DNA from: a virus
Length of the DNA stretch: 34,676 nt
Direction: 5' to 3' (one strand)
IMG/VR virus record: IMGVR_UViG_3300030060_003698
Coordinates: 1 to 34,676 of that record
Positions 14,352-31,012 of the stretch are shown one piece after another. A program made the position numbers and the translations under genes. The number at the start of each line of letters is the position of its first letter. Positions within the stretch are counted from its first letter, which is position 1. The notes beneath the pieces were generated by a model. That model ran no database searches, was not told where the DNA came from, and was given only the letters and a program-made list of their open reading frames with translations.

Positions 14352-14383
14352 GTAGATGAGTTTTATACCCGTGACTTATCTAC
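14352..14383. terminator. Hairpin between convergent genes
   Basis: GTAGATGAG (14352-14360) pairs with CTTATCTAC (14375-14383) with one G-U pair and a 14-nt loop. It lies between the plus-strand stop at 14345 and the minus-strand stop at 14380. It lacks a long T run on either side, so it is a weak terminator candidate. Confidence 0.4.
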
Positions 14384-15126
14384 TGTAATTTGTGAGTATG
14401 TGGGATAACTTGATTTGGTGGAATATTAACAACAATATCTTCACAAGTAATAGCACTAGGAGTATTAGGTTTGAAGGTAACTCCATCTTTTGCCATCTTT
14501 GCACACATTTCCAAACGATATAAACTGATTTCCATTTTAGTTTTCTTTATCAGTAGCCTCTGAGCTTCAATATTTACTTGGGTCGCTTCATGGCAAAGTG
14601 CTGGTGACTTCCCTAGCGGAATATTAAATTGAGCAGATATTCCATAATTTAAATTAAAATTATCTTTTTCAAATCTTGGTATTTCAGAGTAGTACTTTAT
14701 CTCTCCAGTATCTTCGTCATAGATGGGTGTCCTAGTAATGTATTTTTTGGGCCGTGCGAAAGACCAACTATCTGTTACATAAGGTGTAATTGTAAGGCTA
14801 GGAGAAGCACATACAATACCCTGACTCATTCTATAAGATGGCATAGCTGATGGAGTTATCATCGTTGCATTATTATTTACAACACCTTGAGCATTAGAAC
14901 TAGGACTTGCAACTGTTGTATTCGCCAAAACCCTTGCAGGGCAAAGGATTATAGCTATTGTCCAAAGGTAGTTGTAGTTTCTGTAGTTGTGCTTGTATTT
15001 ATTTGGCGAGTTATAGTTGTGGTCGTATCGAGTCCTGGAGTGATTAAAGTTTCTTGAAGAGAAAATGCTGCTCCATCGTTTACGATTCCCCAACGTGGTA
15101 TAGCTTCTAAGTTTGGTGAAGTCCAA
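14380..15126 (-). CDS. Exported protein of unknown function (true start uncertain)
   Basis: The open frame gives 248 aa from an ATG at 15126, but its first 56 residues (Tyr/Asn/Arg-rich) look like the out-of-frame shadow of the overlapping gene at 14955-15386. The convincing protein starts near residue 57: AIILCPARVLANTTV looks like the end of a signal peptide with an Ala-x-Ala-like cleavage site, followed by TRTPIYDEDTGEIKYYSEIP and FNLNYGISAQFNIPLG. In that region the only possible starts are non-standard; ATA at 14958 overlaps the upstream TAG as ATAG. The real protein is therefore about 192 aa, or is made by an unusual start or by readthrough coupling. The C-terminal half has helices and paired cysteines. 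Last gene of a four-gene minus-strand island of exported or membrane proteins. Confidence 0.6.
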   Translation of the reverse strand: MDFTKLRSYTTLGNRKRWSSIFSSRNFNHSRTRYDHNYNSPNKYKHNYRNYNYLWTIAIILCPARVLANTTVASPSSNAQGVVNNNATMITPSAMPSYRMSQGIVCASPSLTITPYVTDSWSFARPKKYITRTPIYDEDTGEIKYYSEIPRFEKDNFNLNYGISAQFNIPLGKSPALCHEATQVNIEAQRLLIKKTKMEISLYRLEMCAKMAKDGVTFKPNTPSAITCEDIVVNIPPNQVIPHTHKLQ

Positions 15127-15386
15127 CTAAAATTTACTCCCCCAACTGTTTGTTCATTCGTAGTCGTAGGAGTAGGGTTGATATATCCTGTTTCAGATTT
15201 GATATTATGTCCTGATGCTGAGTATGAGTATCCTGTCCGATATTGATGGCTCGTGATTGTTTCATTAATTATTGATTCAGATGTACTTGATGTTGTAGAA
15301 CTTCCTGTACGAAACTGCGGAACTACAGGAACAGCAAGTGTTCTTATAGGTAATGTTAATAAAACTAGCAGCCAAAGTCTAGTCAA
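14955..15386 (-). CDS. Exported Thr/Ser-rich protein
   Basis: 143 aa. N-terminus MTRLWLLVLLTLPIRTLAVP is a good signal peptide with cleavage after an Ala. The mature part is rich in Thr and Ser, with QFRTGSSTTSSTSESI early on and TTTTITRQINTSTTTETTTT near the end. A middle motif, GGVNFSWTSPNLEAIPRWGI, suggests beta structure. It overlaps the upstream gene by 8 bases and the downstream frame extensively. Low-complexity exported proteins made by a phage could modify the host surface, block superinfection or be virion parts; nothing here decides between these. Confidence 0.65.
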   Translation of the reverse strand: MTRLWLLVLLTLPIRTLAVPVVPQFRTGSSTTSSTSESIINETITSHQYRTGYSYSASGHNIKSETGYINPTPTTTNEQTVGGVNFSWTSPNLEAIPRWGIVNDGAAFSLQETLITPGLDTTTTITRQINTSTTTETTTTFGQ

Positions 15387-17562: not shown

Positions 17563-17767
17563 TGAAATAATTTTGTAAAACGTTTTTAATAAATTGATTG
17601 GGAGGAACATTATTGTCCTTGCAATAAGTTCTTATTTGTTTTGCAAGAAGATCATCAGTTCTGATTGAAAAGATGTTTCTGTTGTAATCTTTATGGCGAT
17701 CTAGCTTGCGTTCTTGAAGTTGATTTAGAACTTGTTTCCCTGCAAATTCTGCTTCGTCTGTTGTCAT
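17555..17767 (-). CDS. Small RHH-like protein
   Basis: 70 aa. A charged N-terminus is followed by NIFSIRTDDLLAKQIRTYCK and NVPPNQFIKNVLQNYF, the strand-helix-helix pattern of ribbon-helix-helix (CopG/Arc-like) DNA-binding proteins. It overlaps the annealing-protein gene by 4 bases (ATGA) and the downstream gene by 8. It could be a small regulator of this operon or a component associated with the annealing protein. Confidence 0.55.
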   Translation of the reverse strand: MTTDEAEFAGKQVLNQLQERKLDRHKDYNRNIFSIRTDDLLAKQIRTYCKDNNVPPNQFIKNVLQNYFNG

Positions 17768-18492
17768 AGAGTTGAATCAATTTCATTTATTAGAAGTGTA
17801 AGGGCTTTTCCTTGTTCAGCCGTTCTTATGTCATCGGGACCAATTCCTTCTGCTGTAATATCAAACATTTTTTTAAATTTATCTATTACAAAGTCTTTTT
17901 TATCAGGATATTGTTTTGATAAATTCATCATCTTAGTTACAACAGCATCTTTGGCATATTTGGATATAGGTTTACCATAGTTCTTATCTTCGATGGATTC
18001 AACAGGCTCTCCTTTATCATTAGGTTTGCTAGGAGTTCTTTTTATACGATCTTCCTTTTCTGGTAAAGCTTCTTCTTTCTTTGCATCTTCAATTTCAATC
18101 TGTGCCCATAACTCATAAGCTAGACCAAAGGTAAAACAAGCACAGGCACAAAGACATCTACGATGTGAATTTTGAAAGTTAACAGCAGAAATCGTTTTTA
18201 AAGGTCTGTTTGCGTTATCTGTAATAGCAAAAGGAAAAAGAGTAGTTTTGACACTTGTATCAATATGTTCAAAATATCCCATAAGAAATCCAGATCCATC
18301 GGGAGCTTGAAAAATATAAGATGATATACCTTCTTCAGAAGTGGATTTATCTAAACAGAACTGCCAACCTGGAGCGTGTTCTCTCAGTATCTGTGCAGTT
18401 TTAGCCCAAGCGACATAATCAAACTTCATCTTTTTATAGATGTCAGTGGTTTTGATTACCCCAGCTAAATTAGGCAGAGTTGTTGTGGTCAT
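17764..18492 (-). CDS. Sak3-like (DUF1071-type) single-strand annealing protein
   Basis: 242 aa. Residues about 22-135 show the family layout: KFDYVAWAKTAQILREHAPG, then SGFLMGYFEHIDTS and TLFPFAITDNANRPLK, and then HRRCLCACACFTFGLAYELW, the usual 'R.L.K..A.FGLGL.lw' helix. This corresponds to DUF1071/Sak3-type recombinases that anneal single strands in phage recombination and replication. The C-terminal part is charged and helical. Genes for a RusA-like resolvase (next upstream) and a PD-(D/E)XK nuclease (21331) are nearby and make a coherent recombination set. TTAATTAG lies just before the ATG, and a 14-bp near-palindrome at 18504-18517 may regulate it. Confidence 0.75.
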   Translation of the reverse strand: MTTTTLPNLAGVIKTTDIYKKMKFDYVAWAKTAQILREHAPGWQFCLDKSTSEEGISSYIFQAPDGSGFLMGYFEHIDTSVKTTLFPFAITDNANRPLKTISAVNFQNSHRRCLCACACFTFGLAYELWAQIEIEDAKKEEALPEKEDRIKRTPSKPNDKGEPVESIEDKNYGKPISKYAKDAVVTKMMNLSKQYPDKKDFVIDKFKKMFDITAEGIGPDDIRTAEQGKALTLLINEIDSTL

Positions 18493-18523: not shown

Positions 18524-18976
18524 CTAATCGTTAATAGAGGATATTGCAATATATGCTCCTGGTAATTCATCTTTATTTATATATCTCTTCTTTGTATTAA
18601 GTTCAACGACAAGAGAATCATCTTCTAATACACTTCCACCAGCACTAACAGACAATCCATCTAAAGTTGATCTAGACAGCTTATCGATGTCTCCATTACC
18701 TCTACTGATACAATATTTGGGTGCTGAAGGTTTCAATACATCTGCATTTTTCCCTGTTCCATAATGTGACTTAGGTCTAGGAAAAACAAACTCTATATCT
18801 GCCTTAACAGGTAAGTTTAATGCACCTGATGAATAACAATTTAATGCAGCTTCTTTTACATCAGTTCTCCAAGGTTTAACCTTCTTAGATGCTTCAATCA
18901 TTGCACCCCAACGTGTAAGAGTTTTAGATCCTTGAGGAGCAGGGATTCCAACAACCCTAATTGTTATTTCATTCAT
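18524..18976 (-). CDS. rusA: RusA-like Holliday junction resolvase
   Basis: 150 aa from ATG 18976, which overlaps the preceding stop as ATGA; an in-frame upstream start at 19012 would overlap much more. Family features: GIPAPQGSKTLTRWG (10-24), KKVKPWRTDVKEAA (31-44), VFPRPKSHYG (64-73), then NGDIDKLSRSTLDGL (94-108) and LEDDSLVVELNTKKRY (117-132), which hold the conserved catalytic Asp residues and the 'DD..V' motif. RusA cuts four-way junctions as a dimer and would act on recombination or branched replication products before packaging. Neighbours: annealing protein downstream, the AcrVA2-like chimera upstream. Confidence 0.9.
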   Translation of the reverse strand: MNEITIRVVGIPAPQGSKTLTRWGAMIEASKKVKPWRTDVKEAALNCYSSGALNLPVKADIEFVFPRPKSHYGTGKNADVLKPSAPKYCISRGNGDIDKLSRSTLDGLSVSAGGSVLEDDSLVVELNTKKRYINKDELPGAYIAISSIND

Positions 18977-20595
18977 GCTGCGTTTCCTAACACAAAAACT
19001 GGTTGATACCATCGCATTTTACGCTCCTTACGTTTAGCTCCTTTCAATACTGTATGCCAATGACCTCTTCGCCAATGTGGTCTTAACTTTCTTTTACTTC
19101 CACTAACAACCAAGAAGTCTTCATCTTGCTTTGGTTTTAGTTTGACAACCCTAGTTGTAAAATCTTTCCCCACCCAACAAATAGCTCTTGGTTTGATATC
19201 ACTTTGTACTTTATATTTTTTCTGTAAAGGTACAATTTTTGATGGGATATATTCTTCGGTAATAATATCTGGCTGTTGATTCATTAGTAAAAGCAAATTT
19301 ACAACTGTTTTAAAATGATCTTGTATTATATGATCTTCAACTTCTGTAAATTGCATTATTTTAAATATTTTTAGATTTTTCCAATTAAATGCGTAGTAAT
19401 AAATTTTATTTGGTTCTATGACAAAATTTACATATACATCAAATTTGTATTTTGGATTAATCAACATATCTTTTGCATCATTTATACCCCATTTATGACA
19501 TTCAATAAATGAATATTTGATCTCATTTATTTTGTTTGAATGCAATAAAAAAAAACTTGGGTTAACTATATTTGGACTTTCTGTAAGTTCAAGATTATCA
19601 ATATTAGTATTAATTAATGAATTACATAAATCATCCTTTAAATAATAAGCAGGAGAATCATAGATGTATTGTTTACTCCTGTGTTTACAGTTGATATGCT
19701 CTCTTGCCAAATCCTGCCAGGAATAAAAATTCTGAGGTGATTTGTATTTATATAAGAATTGCCCTCTAGTGATTTTTGGCTTTGATTCAATTACAACTTC
19801 TTTGACTTTACTTTCTTCTTTTTTACGTCTTTCTGCAAAAGCAGAACTAATATCTGCTCTTCTTTGTTTATTATTAAACTTTGGTAATTTACTTGGATCA
19901 TTAACAGTAACCCATCTATCACCGATTTTCATATGAAGAGTACCAGTATTTGGATGAATCCATAAGTCTCCTTCCTTTGCATCACCTCTGCGTTCAACTA
20001 TCTTTCTTTCATTAGTTTCTTCTTCTGAGGCTATGCTACTCAATGTGTTATCAGATGTATTAAAAAATAACTGTCCTTCTTTTTCATCTTTTGAGTCTTT
20101 TTCAGTATCACTACTTAGAGTTCCTCCACGTTGTTTATATTCTTTCAATATCCAATTATTTTTTGCAACTATGGGATACTTTCTATGAAATCTTTTGGTT
20201 GCTTCATCTCTAATAGTTTTATATAGTTGAAAATCATGAAATCTTGTCCTTAATCTTCTTTCTTTTACTTGTTCATCAACATTATCCTCAACAAATAAAC
20301 CACCTCTTTTTTTATATTCTTTTCTAATCCATGCATTCGCATGAGCAGATGGATAAATTTGAAATTTTTCTTTAGCCAAATTTCTTATTCTGCGTAAAAG
20401 TTTTTTATTTGCACACCTACCTTTAAAAGTTTTTGCATCAAGTTCTAATCTTCTTCTCTCTTCAGTGCTCATTTTATAATTTAAATTATATTTATTTTTT
20501 TCTTTAGTTTTTGCTGCATAATAATTATCTAATCTTTTTTTATATTCTTCTTTAGGTAATAAATTTCCATGTTCAAATTTAGCTGGTTTAGACAT
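18973..20595 (-). CDS. Chimeric protein: two YPSAxANAW modules + AcrVA2-like C-terminal half
   Basis: 540 aa. Residues about 66-100 and 125-160 are two copies of a basic module, best seen as YPSAHANAWIRKEYKKRGG (81-99) and YPIVAKNNWILKEYKQRGG (140-158). The same module is a stand-alone gene at 30586. Residues 209-230 (GDLWIHPNTGTLHMKIGDRW and on) look like a short segment common in phage fibre/structural proteins. The C-terminal half (about 285-540) resembles AcrVA2 of Moraxella as I remember it: a strand block KFDVYVNFVIEP, a helix ending LLLLMNQQPDII (434-445), and especially RPHWRRGHWH (505-514) plus MRWYQPVFVLGN near the end. AcrVA2 blocks Cas12a production. Whether this homolog has that activity is unknown, since the family is broad. 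TTAATTAA lies before the start; the stop overlaps rusA. Confidence 0.7.
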   Translation of the reverse strand: MSKPAKFEHGNLLPKEEYKKRLDNYYAAKTKEKNKYNLNYKMSTEERRRLELDAKTFKGRCANKKLLRRIRNLAKEKFQIYPSAHANAWIRKEYKKRGGLFVEDNVDEQVKERRLRTRFHDFQLYKTIRDEATKRFHRKYPIVAKNNWILKEYKQRGGTLSSDTEKDSKDEKEGQLFFNTSDNTLSSIASEEETNERKIVERRGDAKEGDLWIHPNTGTLHMKIGDRWVTVNDPSKLPKFNNKQRRADISSAFAERRKKEESKVKEVVIESKPKITRGQFLYKYKSPQNFYSWQDLAREHINCKHRSKQYIYDSPAYYLKDDLCNSLINTNIDNLELTESPNIVNPSFFLLHSNKINEIKYSFIECHKWGINDAKDMLINPKYKFDVYVNFVIEPNKIYYYAFNWKNLKIFKIMQFTEVEDHIIQDHFKTVVNLLLLMNQQPDIITEEYIPSKIVPLQKKYKVQSDIKPRAICWVGKDFTTRVVKLKPKQDEDFLVVSGSKRKLRPHWRRGHWHTVLKGAKRKERKMRWYQPVFVLGNAA

Positions 20596-20605: not shown

Positions 20606-20645
20606 ATAATGGATATATTTATATATAACTATATATCTTATTATA

Positions 20646-20816
20646 TTATTTTTCAAGTGTTCTTATTCTTTGTTTGATATTCCAATCTCTTACTATATAT
20701 TCTTTAAGAGTCAGTTTTTTTTGATACCACAACCATTCATTATCTGCCTGTTCTTTCCATAGTTTTTTTACTAAATACTTTTTTCTTTCTTCTAGTTCTT
20801 TATAAAAACATTTCAT
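20646..20816 (-). CDS. 56-aa basic helical protein
   Basis: ATG 20816 overlaps the upstream stop as ATGA; TAA at 20646-20648. Product begins MKCFYKELEERKKYLVKKLW and continues with WLWYQKKLTLKEYIVRDWNI. It is charged, Trp-rich and helical. The tight overlap argues that it is real. Function unknown. Confidence 0.65.
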   Translation of the reverse strand: MKCFYKELEERKKYLVKKLWKEQADNEWLWYQKKLTLKEYIVRDWNIKQRIRTLEK

Positions 20817-30524: not shown

Positions 30525-30605
30525 ATGCCTTACCATACTGGAATGAAAAAAAAGAAAAAGAAGAAGAAGGGAGGTAAAAAGCGTAGTGAATGTTCCTGTA
30601 AATAA
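30525..30605 (+). CDS. 26-aa poly-lysine peptide
   Basis: ATG 30525, TAA 30603-30605. MPYHTGM is followed by eight lysines and GGKKRSECSCK. The Lys run uses both AAA and AAG, which argues for selected protein sequence rather than a homopolymer artefact. Similar 'MPYH...KKKK' peptides occur in marine phages (from memory). A DNA-neutralising or nucleoid-like role in packaging is possible. Its end overlaps the next gene by 20 bases. Confidence 0.55.
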   Translation: MPYHTGMKKKKKKKKGGKKRSECSCK

Positions 30606-30747
30606 AACTCTTTACGCTAGAGTAAAAGCCGAAGCCAAGCGTAAGTTCAAGGTATATCCTAGTGCTTATGCAAATGCGTGGCTTGTACGAGAGTACAAGA
30701 AACGTGGTGGCACTTACCGAGTGGAGAAGAAACGTGGCAAAAAGTAG
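30586..30747 (+). CDS. 53-aa basic YPSAxANAW-module protein
   Basis: GTG start, TAG 30745-30747. LYARVKAEAKRKFKVYPSAY, then ANAWLVREYKKRGGTYRVEK and a KKRGKK end. The core is the same module that appears twice in the 540-aa early protein at 18973. Strong positive charge and neighbours suggest nucleic-acid binding. It overlaps both neighbours (20 and 14 bases). Confidence 0.7.
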   Translation: MNVPVNKTLYARVKAEAKRKFKVYPSAYANAWLVREYKKRGGTYRVEKKRGKK

Positions 30748-31012
30748 CCCAAATCCAAGAGCAAAGGGTGGTTTAACTCGTTGGTTTGAAGAAAACTGGG
30801 TTGATGTAAAAACTGGTAAACCTTGTGGCCGTAAAAAAGGCGAAAAAAGAGGCTATCCAGCTTGCCGACCTAGTAAACGTGTATCAAGTAAGACACCTAA
30901 GACTGTTGGAGAAATGACAGCTAGTGAAAAAGCACGTTTTAAACGTGAAAAAACTAGCAGTAAGAAGATAACATATCAACATAGACGTAAAAAAACCAAA
31001 AAAAGGAGTTAG
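30734..31012 (+). CDS. 92-aa basic DUF5872-like protein
   Basis: GTG at 30734 gives AKSSPNPRAKGGLTRWFEEN; an in-frame start at 30662 would lie within the previous gene. The block LTRWFEENWVDVKTGKPCGR, then KRGYPACRPSKRVSSKTPKT is typical of small phage proteins annotated DUF5872 (RWF..WVDV...CGR...YP.CRP). The two Cys in CGR and ACRP may bind metal. The C-terminus is Lys/Arg-rich. A virion or DNA-binding role fits its place beside the packaging genes. Confidence 0.75.
   Translation: MAKSSPNPRAKGGLTRWFEENWVDVKTGKPCGRKKGEKRGYPACRPSKRVSSKTPKTVGEMTASEKARFKREKTSSKKITYQHRRKKTKKRS

Follow-up and report, generated by a model that had tools for sequence, protein, structure and literature searches.

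A modular protein of the AcrVA2 superfamily from a marine siphovirus, encoded in a variable slot among the recombination genes

Introduction

AcrVA2 of Moraxella (PDB 7ci1 and 7ci2; PHROG profile phrog_6160) brings about the loss of cas12a mRNA in a manner that depends on translation. This is described as the first case on record in prokaryotes of translation-dependent mRNA degradation directed against CRISPR, and how recognition of the peptide leads to decay of the mRNA is reported to be still unexplained (PMC13131331). Our search of the literature found no experiment on any superfamily member outside the AcrVA2 subfamily and no paper on DUF5824, one of the modules attached to such members; for DUF5872, another of them, just a table entry was found.

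The window, that is, the whole stretch of DNA analyzed, corresponds to an entire virus record in IMG/VR (34,676 bases), in which a leftward gene encodes a 540-aa protein related to this superfamily. What is new in this locus is the position of the gene in a cargo slot that is bordered by a 56-aa ORF and a Holliday-junction resolvase, and the joining of a conserved C-terminal domain (C-domain) to exchangeable N-termini.

Organization of the gene and its product

The gene and the segments of its product are as follows:

18973..20595, minus strand: AcrVA2-superfamily modular gene, 540 aa (ORF translation; 25 relatives in IMG/VR)
20278..20427, minus strand: basic helical module 1, residues 57-106, corresponding to the N-terminal half of DUF5872 (Pfam, structure prediction, direct comparison)
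20110..20259, minus strand: basic helical module 2, residues 113-162, a second DUF5872-type copy (Pfam, structure prediction, direct comparison)
19882..20007, minus strand: short conserved beta segment, residues 197-238, RKIVERRGDAKEGDLW...GDRWVTVNDPSKLP (near-invariant in 26 sequences; strands predicted)
18976..19770, minus strand: AcrVA2-superfamily domain, residues 276-540 (profiles, fold search, tree)
18991..19080, minus strand: universal C-terminal block PHWRRGHWH...G...W..P..V, residues 506-535 (profile and sequence matches)

The ORF, read from 20595 to 18973, is intact over its 540 codons, and its start codon is backed by the relatives, which begin with M-x-K/R-P at the same position. 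The translation includes LLLLMNQQPDII, RPHWRRGHWH, and MRWYQPVFVLGN, so that all the strings quoted from the C-terminal part by the first-pass annotation are present. Searches of the protein against NCBIfam gave no match, PADLOC returned nothing for the protein itself, and a search of phage records with the middle GDLW segment brought up nothing significant elsewhere.

Relationship of the C-terminal domain to AcrVA2

The proposal that the C-terminal half is AcrVA2-like holds for the superfamily, on the evidence of phrog_6160, the profile comparisons, and the fold, and is not supported for the AcrVA2 subfamily, given the tree and the marginal similarity outside the C-terminal motif. In the PHROG profile search, phrog_6160 matches residues 411-538 (E=3.3e-12), the match covering only positions 194-319 of a ~320-residue profile that true members match nearly end to end; PHROG 6160 can be equated with the AcrVA2 family because the homologue of Moraxella phage Mcat5 scores 1.7e-106 against it, end to end. 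AcrVA2 is also the sole match in a PDB sequence search, where the similarity is weak (E=0.0039) and confined to residues 503-536. The window protein carries the C-terminal PHxRRGHWH...G...W..P..V block of the AcrVA2 subfamily, and most of its C-domain is matched in tblastn by cyanobacterial plasmids (Nostoc, Calothrix, Chondrocystis; E down to 2e-7). Proteins such as Nostoc WP_104902507.1 and Calothrix BAZ65009.1, which match most of residues 276-540 (E~2e-7, tblastn), have a cellular or plasmid location and, unlike the window protein, lack the N-terminal modules. A profile scan of the genome contigs, with closer alignment, placed the domain in 23 loci.

Profiles of AcrVA2-type, cyanobacterial, and marine-phage sequences were compared in two hhalign runs, one of which acted as a global alignment and the other as a local one, shuffled or reversed controls giving 0.2-1. 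Over the full domain, the window family aligns with the AcrVA2-type set at E=2e-13 in global mode. With the sequences truncated just before the PHxRRGHWH block, the window family still matched the two marine-phage sets locally at E=1.7e-52 (the set of stand-alone HWRRGHWH proteins, which includes extended members too) and 9.8e-18, and the cyanobacterial set at 2.7e-10 (global) or, with marine kin added, 4.4e-12 (local). Against AcrVA2, the same comparison gave E 0.035 locally and nothing in global mode, and the bridging cyanobacterial and viral sets reached AcrVA2 at 7e-6 to 1e-4 (global) and 0.005-0.01 (local). These motif-removed comparisons indicate that the domain is homologous over its full length to a broad superfamily, in which the nearest kin of the window domain are marine-phage and cyanobacterial-plasmid proteins. 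What links this superfamily to AcrVA2 is chiefly the C-terminal block, together with the fold. Without the short motif, the likeness to the marine and cyanobacterial kin is still strong, and the direct sequence similarity to AcrVA2 itself is marginal.

The structural comparison points in the same direction with reservations. A C-domain model from 35 diverse sequences, of modest quality (pTM 0.55, pLDDT 54), retrieved the AcrVA2 structures as the only significant PDB fold matches (7ci2_A, E=4.4e-6 over 303 columns; 7ci1_B, 1.9e-4; next 0.21), with a TM of ~0.37; because the TM is low and the alignment contained AcrVA2 relatives, this match is support rather than proof. In a full-length model from 26 close relatives the C-domain was poor, and a PDB search with it was empty. 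In the viral structure library, the C-domain model matched a protein of an uncultured Mediterranean phage (E=4e-12) and proteins of Erwinia phages; one match of this AcrVA2-like fold model, BFVD entry A0A223LH45 (Erwinia phage RisingSun), is annotated as 'putative mycothiosynthase', probably wrongly.

In a tree of 46 sequences, obtained by a quick search and with several long branches, the AcrVA2 group is split from the window clade and the cyanobacterial group with an SH-aLRT of 97. In summary, residues 276-540 are supported as a member of the AcrVA2 superfamily distantly related to AcrVA2, with which they have in common the C-terminal block and a domain co-linear by profile, AcrVA2 being also their best PDB fold match; the window protein differs from AcrVA2 in a ~275-residue N-terminal extension with swapped modules and in branching separately in the tree. 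The data do not support placing it in the AcrVA2 subfamily, since it falls outside that group in the tree and the similarity beyond the C-terminal motif is marginal, and it should not be classified as AcrVA2.

Exchange of the N-terminal modules

The extension with two basic modules described in the first-pass annotation was recovered by direct comparison, in which residues 57-106 and 113-162 are 39% identical over 49 aa (E=3e-10), and by a Pfam match to DUF5872 (E=1.7e-5), whose 25.8 bits lie slightly under the cut-off of 27.5; the relative L013 reaches 36 bits, over this curated cut-off. In the full-length prediction from 26 close relatives both modules are modeled as helix pairs (pLDDT ~70-86). 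The extension itself is supported; its two-copy form is not typical, being confined to the window, L003, and L004, and most relatives have a single copy, others another module or none. Both modules match the first half of DUF5872 (PF19197); in the full DUF5872 a second half, GLxRWFxExWVDVxTGKPCGR, comes next, which is absent from the window protein and is encoded in a separate ORF (30662-31012). The same module type also stands alone in this genome:

30547..30744, plus strand: stand-alone DUF5872 half-module beside the terminase, of the type present in the gene (Pfam)

The two halves of DUF5872 are thus two overlapping ORFs, 30547-30744 (+) and 30662-31012 (+), directly after the large terminase gene, and the Pfam profile counts as one protein what the window phage encodes in two ORFs.

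Among 21 full-length members of the window clade, similarity at the N-terminus shows no correlation with similarity in the C-domain (Spearman rho=0.04), whereas similarity in the middle segment follows that in the C-domain (rho=0.55). Individual pairs diverge in either direction, the window and L005 being 98% identical in the C-domain and 42% at the N-terminus, and L011 and L022 95% identical at the N-terminus and 76% in the C-domain. Between the window and seven relatives, dN/dS is about 0.05-0.13 in the C-domain and about 0.35-1 at the N-terminus, where the alignments are less sure.

The wider members with the HWRRGHWH block are either stand-alone or extended by DUF5824-type modules. Stand-alone proteins of marine phages (L220, L242, L212, L265), of ~300 aa, have the entire C-domain in common with the window protein and, unlike it, no N-terminal extension; the DUF5824-extended members (L211, L231, L237, L201) have the same C-domain and, like the window protein, an exchangeable N-terminus, in which the module is DUF5824 instead of DUF5872. 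A MPKPxxFxxGRR leader is common to L211, L231, and L237. The linker GKITEMTQTIGIEGSPTLTLPSGQTVSM occurs in similar form in L201 and in linkers of the window clade (e.g., L008, L010, L013), next to different N-terminal modules, which is another sign of segment shuffling. The protein is therefore modular, being composed of exchangeable small basic N-terminal modules, a short beta segment, and a conserved ~265-residue AcrVA2-superfamily domain.

The cargo slot

The surroundings of the gene comprise the following features:

20646..20816, minus strand: 56-aa ORF, upstream border of the cargo slot (locus comparison)
20613..20634, minus strand: AT-rich 22-bp quasi-palindrome, 17 bp ahead of the start codon (overlaps a sigma-70-like promoter match, 20656..20628)
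18524..18976, minus strand: RusA-type Holliday-junction resolvase, which closes the slot on its downstream side (RusA Pfam E=5.5e-11)
17764..18492, minus strand: Sak-type single-strand annealing protein of the same cluster

A PD-(D/E)XK nuclease is also near the gene, and in more distant marine phages the relatives are again found within an annealing/nuclease cluster. The placement of the gene in a leftward operon by the first-pass annotation agrees with its position in a leftward recombination and replication cluster with swapped accessory genes. In RusA-type loci with both borders (n=33), the slot holds the gene in 14, other genes in 12, and nothing in 7; in Hjc-type loci (n=30), it never holds the gene and is empty in 19, the others having an N6/N4 DNA methyltransferase (7) or other occupants (4), with some loci in both counts possibly near-duplicates. 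The remaining occupants comprise a helicase (ResIII/DEAD), a GIY-YIG-like protein (MUG113/T5orf172), an ORF of 163 aa, and two uncharacterized gene pairs, and in L014 and L071 cassettes are stacked in one slot. Where the slot is empty, the 56-aa ORF in most cases runs into the start of the resolvase with an ATGA overlap; the TGA of the 540-aa gene and the resolvase ATG form the same overlap. The gene thus constitutes a cassette that is inserted cleanly into a variable slot within the recombination cluster of this marine siphovirus. A second place, downstream of a homologue of g14380, is where it lies in five loci (L010, L016, L018, L019, L023).

Relatives with the gene in slot 1 have the quasi-palindrome, ATATAGTTATATATAAATATAT, conserved at the same place ahead of it, and a similar one precedes the helicase cassette of L062 in slot 1; at the second location, a promoter-like sequence, TTGACA-17-TAATAT, takes its place. 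The element was considered as an operator of the 540-aa gene and rejected on these grounds, namely, the different upstream sequence of the five second-place loci and the similar element at the helicase cassette, which make it look like a slot promoter. Promoter-like matches in the region are no commoner than in shuffles.

Other contents of these loci were also observed. A two-gene cassette (~202 + 309 aa) lies between the 56-aa ORF and the resolvase in L063, L067, and L112 (variants L048, L077, L114), preceded in the first three by the palindrome-like GTGTATATACAC. The slot cassette at L046:2576-4155 and L072:9303-10820 encodes a ~370-aa and a 130-aa protein without Pfam match, the latter with a weak PADLOC match to LmuB. 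In the window, 14380-15126 (-) and 14955-15386 (-) are out-of-frame overlapping ORFs, one of them opening with a signal-peptide-like segment; both are conserved in Prochlorococcus phage MED4-117, suggesting that they are true overlapping genes.

Possible functions

By analogy with AcrVA2, the 540-aa protein may tentatively be regarded as an early accessory effector directed at the host or at rivals, with a silencing C-domain and a directing N-terminal module. It would be produced early in infection, since the gene sits in the leftward cluster, and its host- or rival-directed role would be indicated by the accompanying alternative cargo. The constant C-domain would silence or restrain a product of the host or of a rival phage. 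As with AcrVA2 (PMC13131331), the most likely route would be contact with a nascent chain, with the corresponding mRNA, or with the ribosome during translation. The basic N-terminal module may direct or anchor the protein, possibly via nucleic-acid binding, a property of the DUF5872 modules that we infer from charge and predicted helices alone. The target is probably not Cas12a.

The main rival of this effector reading, somewhat unlikely in our estimation, is an accessory of phage DNA recombination or replication, whose basic modules would bind DNA and whose C-domain would work with the adjacent annealing protein and resolvase. The translational coupling to RusA, the proximity of the Sak annealing protein and the PD-(D/E)XK nuclease, the similar clusters around distant relatives in other marine phages, and the strong purifying selection on the C-domain all favor it, and the repeated nearness to recombination genes would fit a role in DNA metabolism. 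Nevertheless, the gene is dispensable, being missing at the slot in 19 of 33 RusA-type and 30 of 30 Hjc-type phages, and sits elsewhere in the five loci with the gene downstream of g14380, and those superfamily members that have been characterized affect the expression of Cas12a rather than DNA. A weapon against rival phages (superinfection exclusion), or a selfish cassette jumping between slots, seems rather unlikely; such a role would agree with the GIY-YIG-like nuclease, methyltransferase, and helicase genes among the alternative occupants, with the two genomic places of the gene, and with the stacking of cassettes, but the C-domain is strongly constrained and the protein itself has no nuclease or recombinase signature in Pfam, NCBIfam, and PADLOC searches. 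A packaging- or virion-linked protein, in which packaging-related DUF5872 or DUF5824 modules would recruit the C-domain, is very unlikely: a stand-alone DUF5872 half-module does lie beside the terminase in the window phage and in phage C72C1, but the gene belongs to the leftward recombination cluster, away from the structural genes, and many members are entirely without modules.

As for Cas12a, Prochlorococcus phages MED4-117, MED4-184, and P-HS2 are among the named phage records closest to the window, as is the single-virus genome AG-345-A17, which comes from an extracellular sort (plate AG-345; PMC6122165); a marine picocyanobacterium is therefore the probable host. Marine Prochlorococcus and Synechococcus have been reported to be without CRISPR (PMC10820777). 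None of the 21 cyanobacterial genomes carrying cellular relatives encodes a Cas12a over the cut-off, and the same search in a sample of the phylum found full-length Cas12a in 4 of 292 genomes, which are small and without photosystem II. Cas12a is thus an unlikely target, because none of the 21 genomes encodes it and the probable hosts are without CRISPR. That the protein is a true anti-Cas12a anti-CRISPR is extremely improbable, since the C-terminal block and the fold match to AcrVA2 are set against its position outside the AcrVA2 subfamily, the absence of Cas12a from the genomes with cellular relatives, and the CRISPR-less marine Prochlorococcus and Synechococcus.

Returning to the effector reading, a broader version of it, unlikely as it stands, would have polymorphic gene-silencing effectors in marine phages of CRISPR-less hosts, carried as plug-in slot cassettes, in which a constant AcrVA2-type domain would block or destroy products during translation and exchangeable modules (DUF5872, DUF5824, and others) would retarget it to host or rival products.

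Implications for the AcrVA2 superfamily

With this locus, a branch of the AcrVA2 superfamily that is modular and lies outside CRISPR comes to light. A conserved AcrVA2-related tail, with a front end that is exchanged between phages, in a gene-swapping slot, suggests that the AcrVA2-related family has a wider role than blocking Cas12a. The phage modules DUF5872 and DUF5824 gain a context in which they are interchangeable. The gene is part of a large superfamily branch in phages of Cas12a-less hosts that offers natural modular variants, so that both the general function of the superfamily and the setting of the target by the N-terminus become directly testable.
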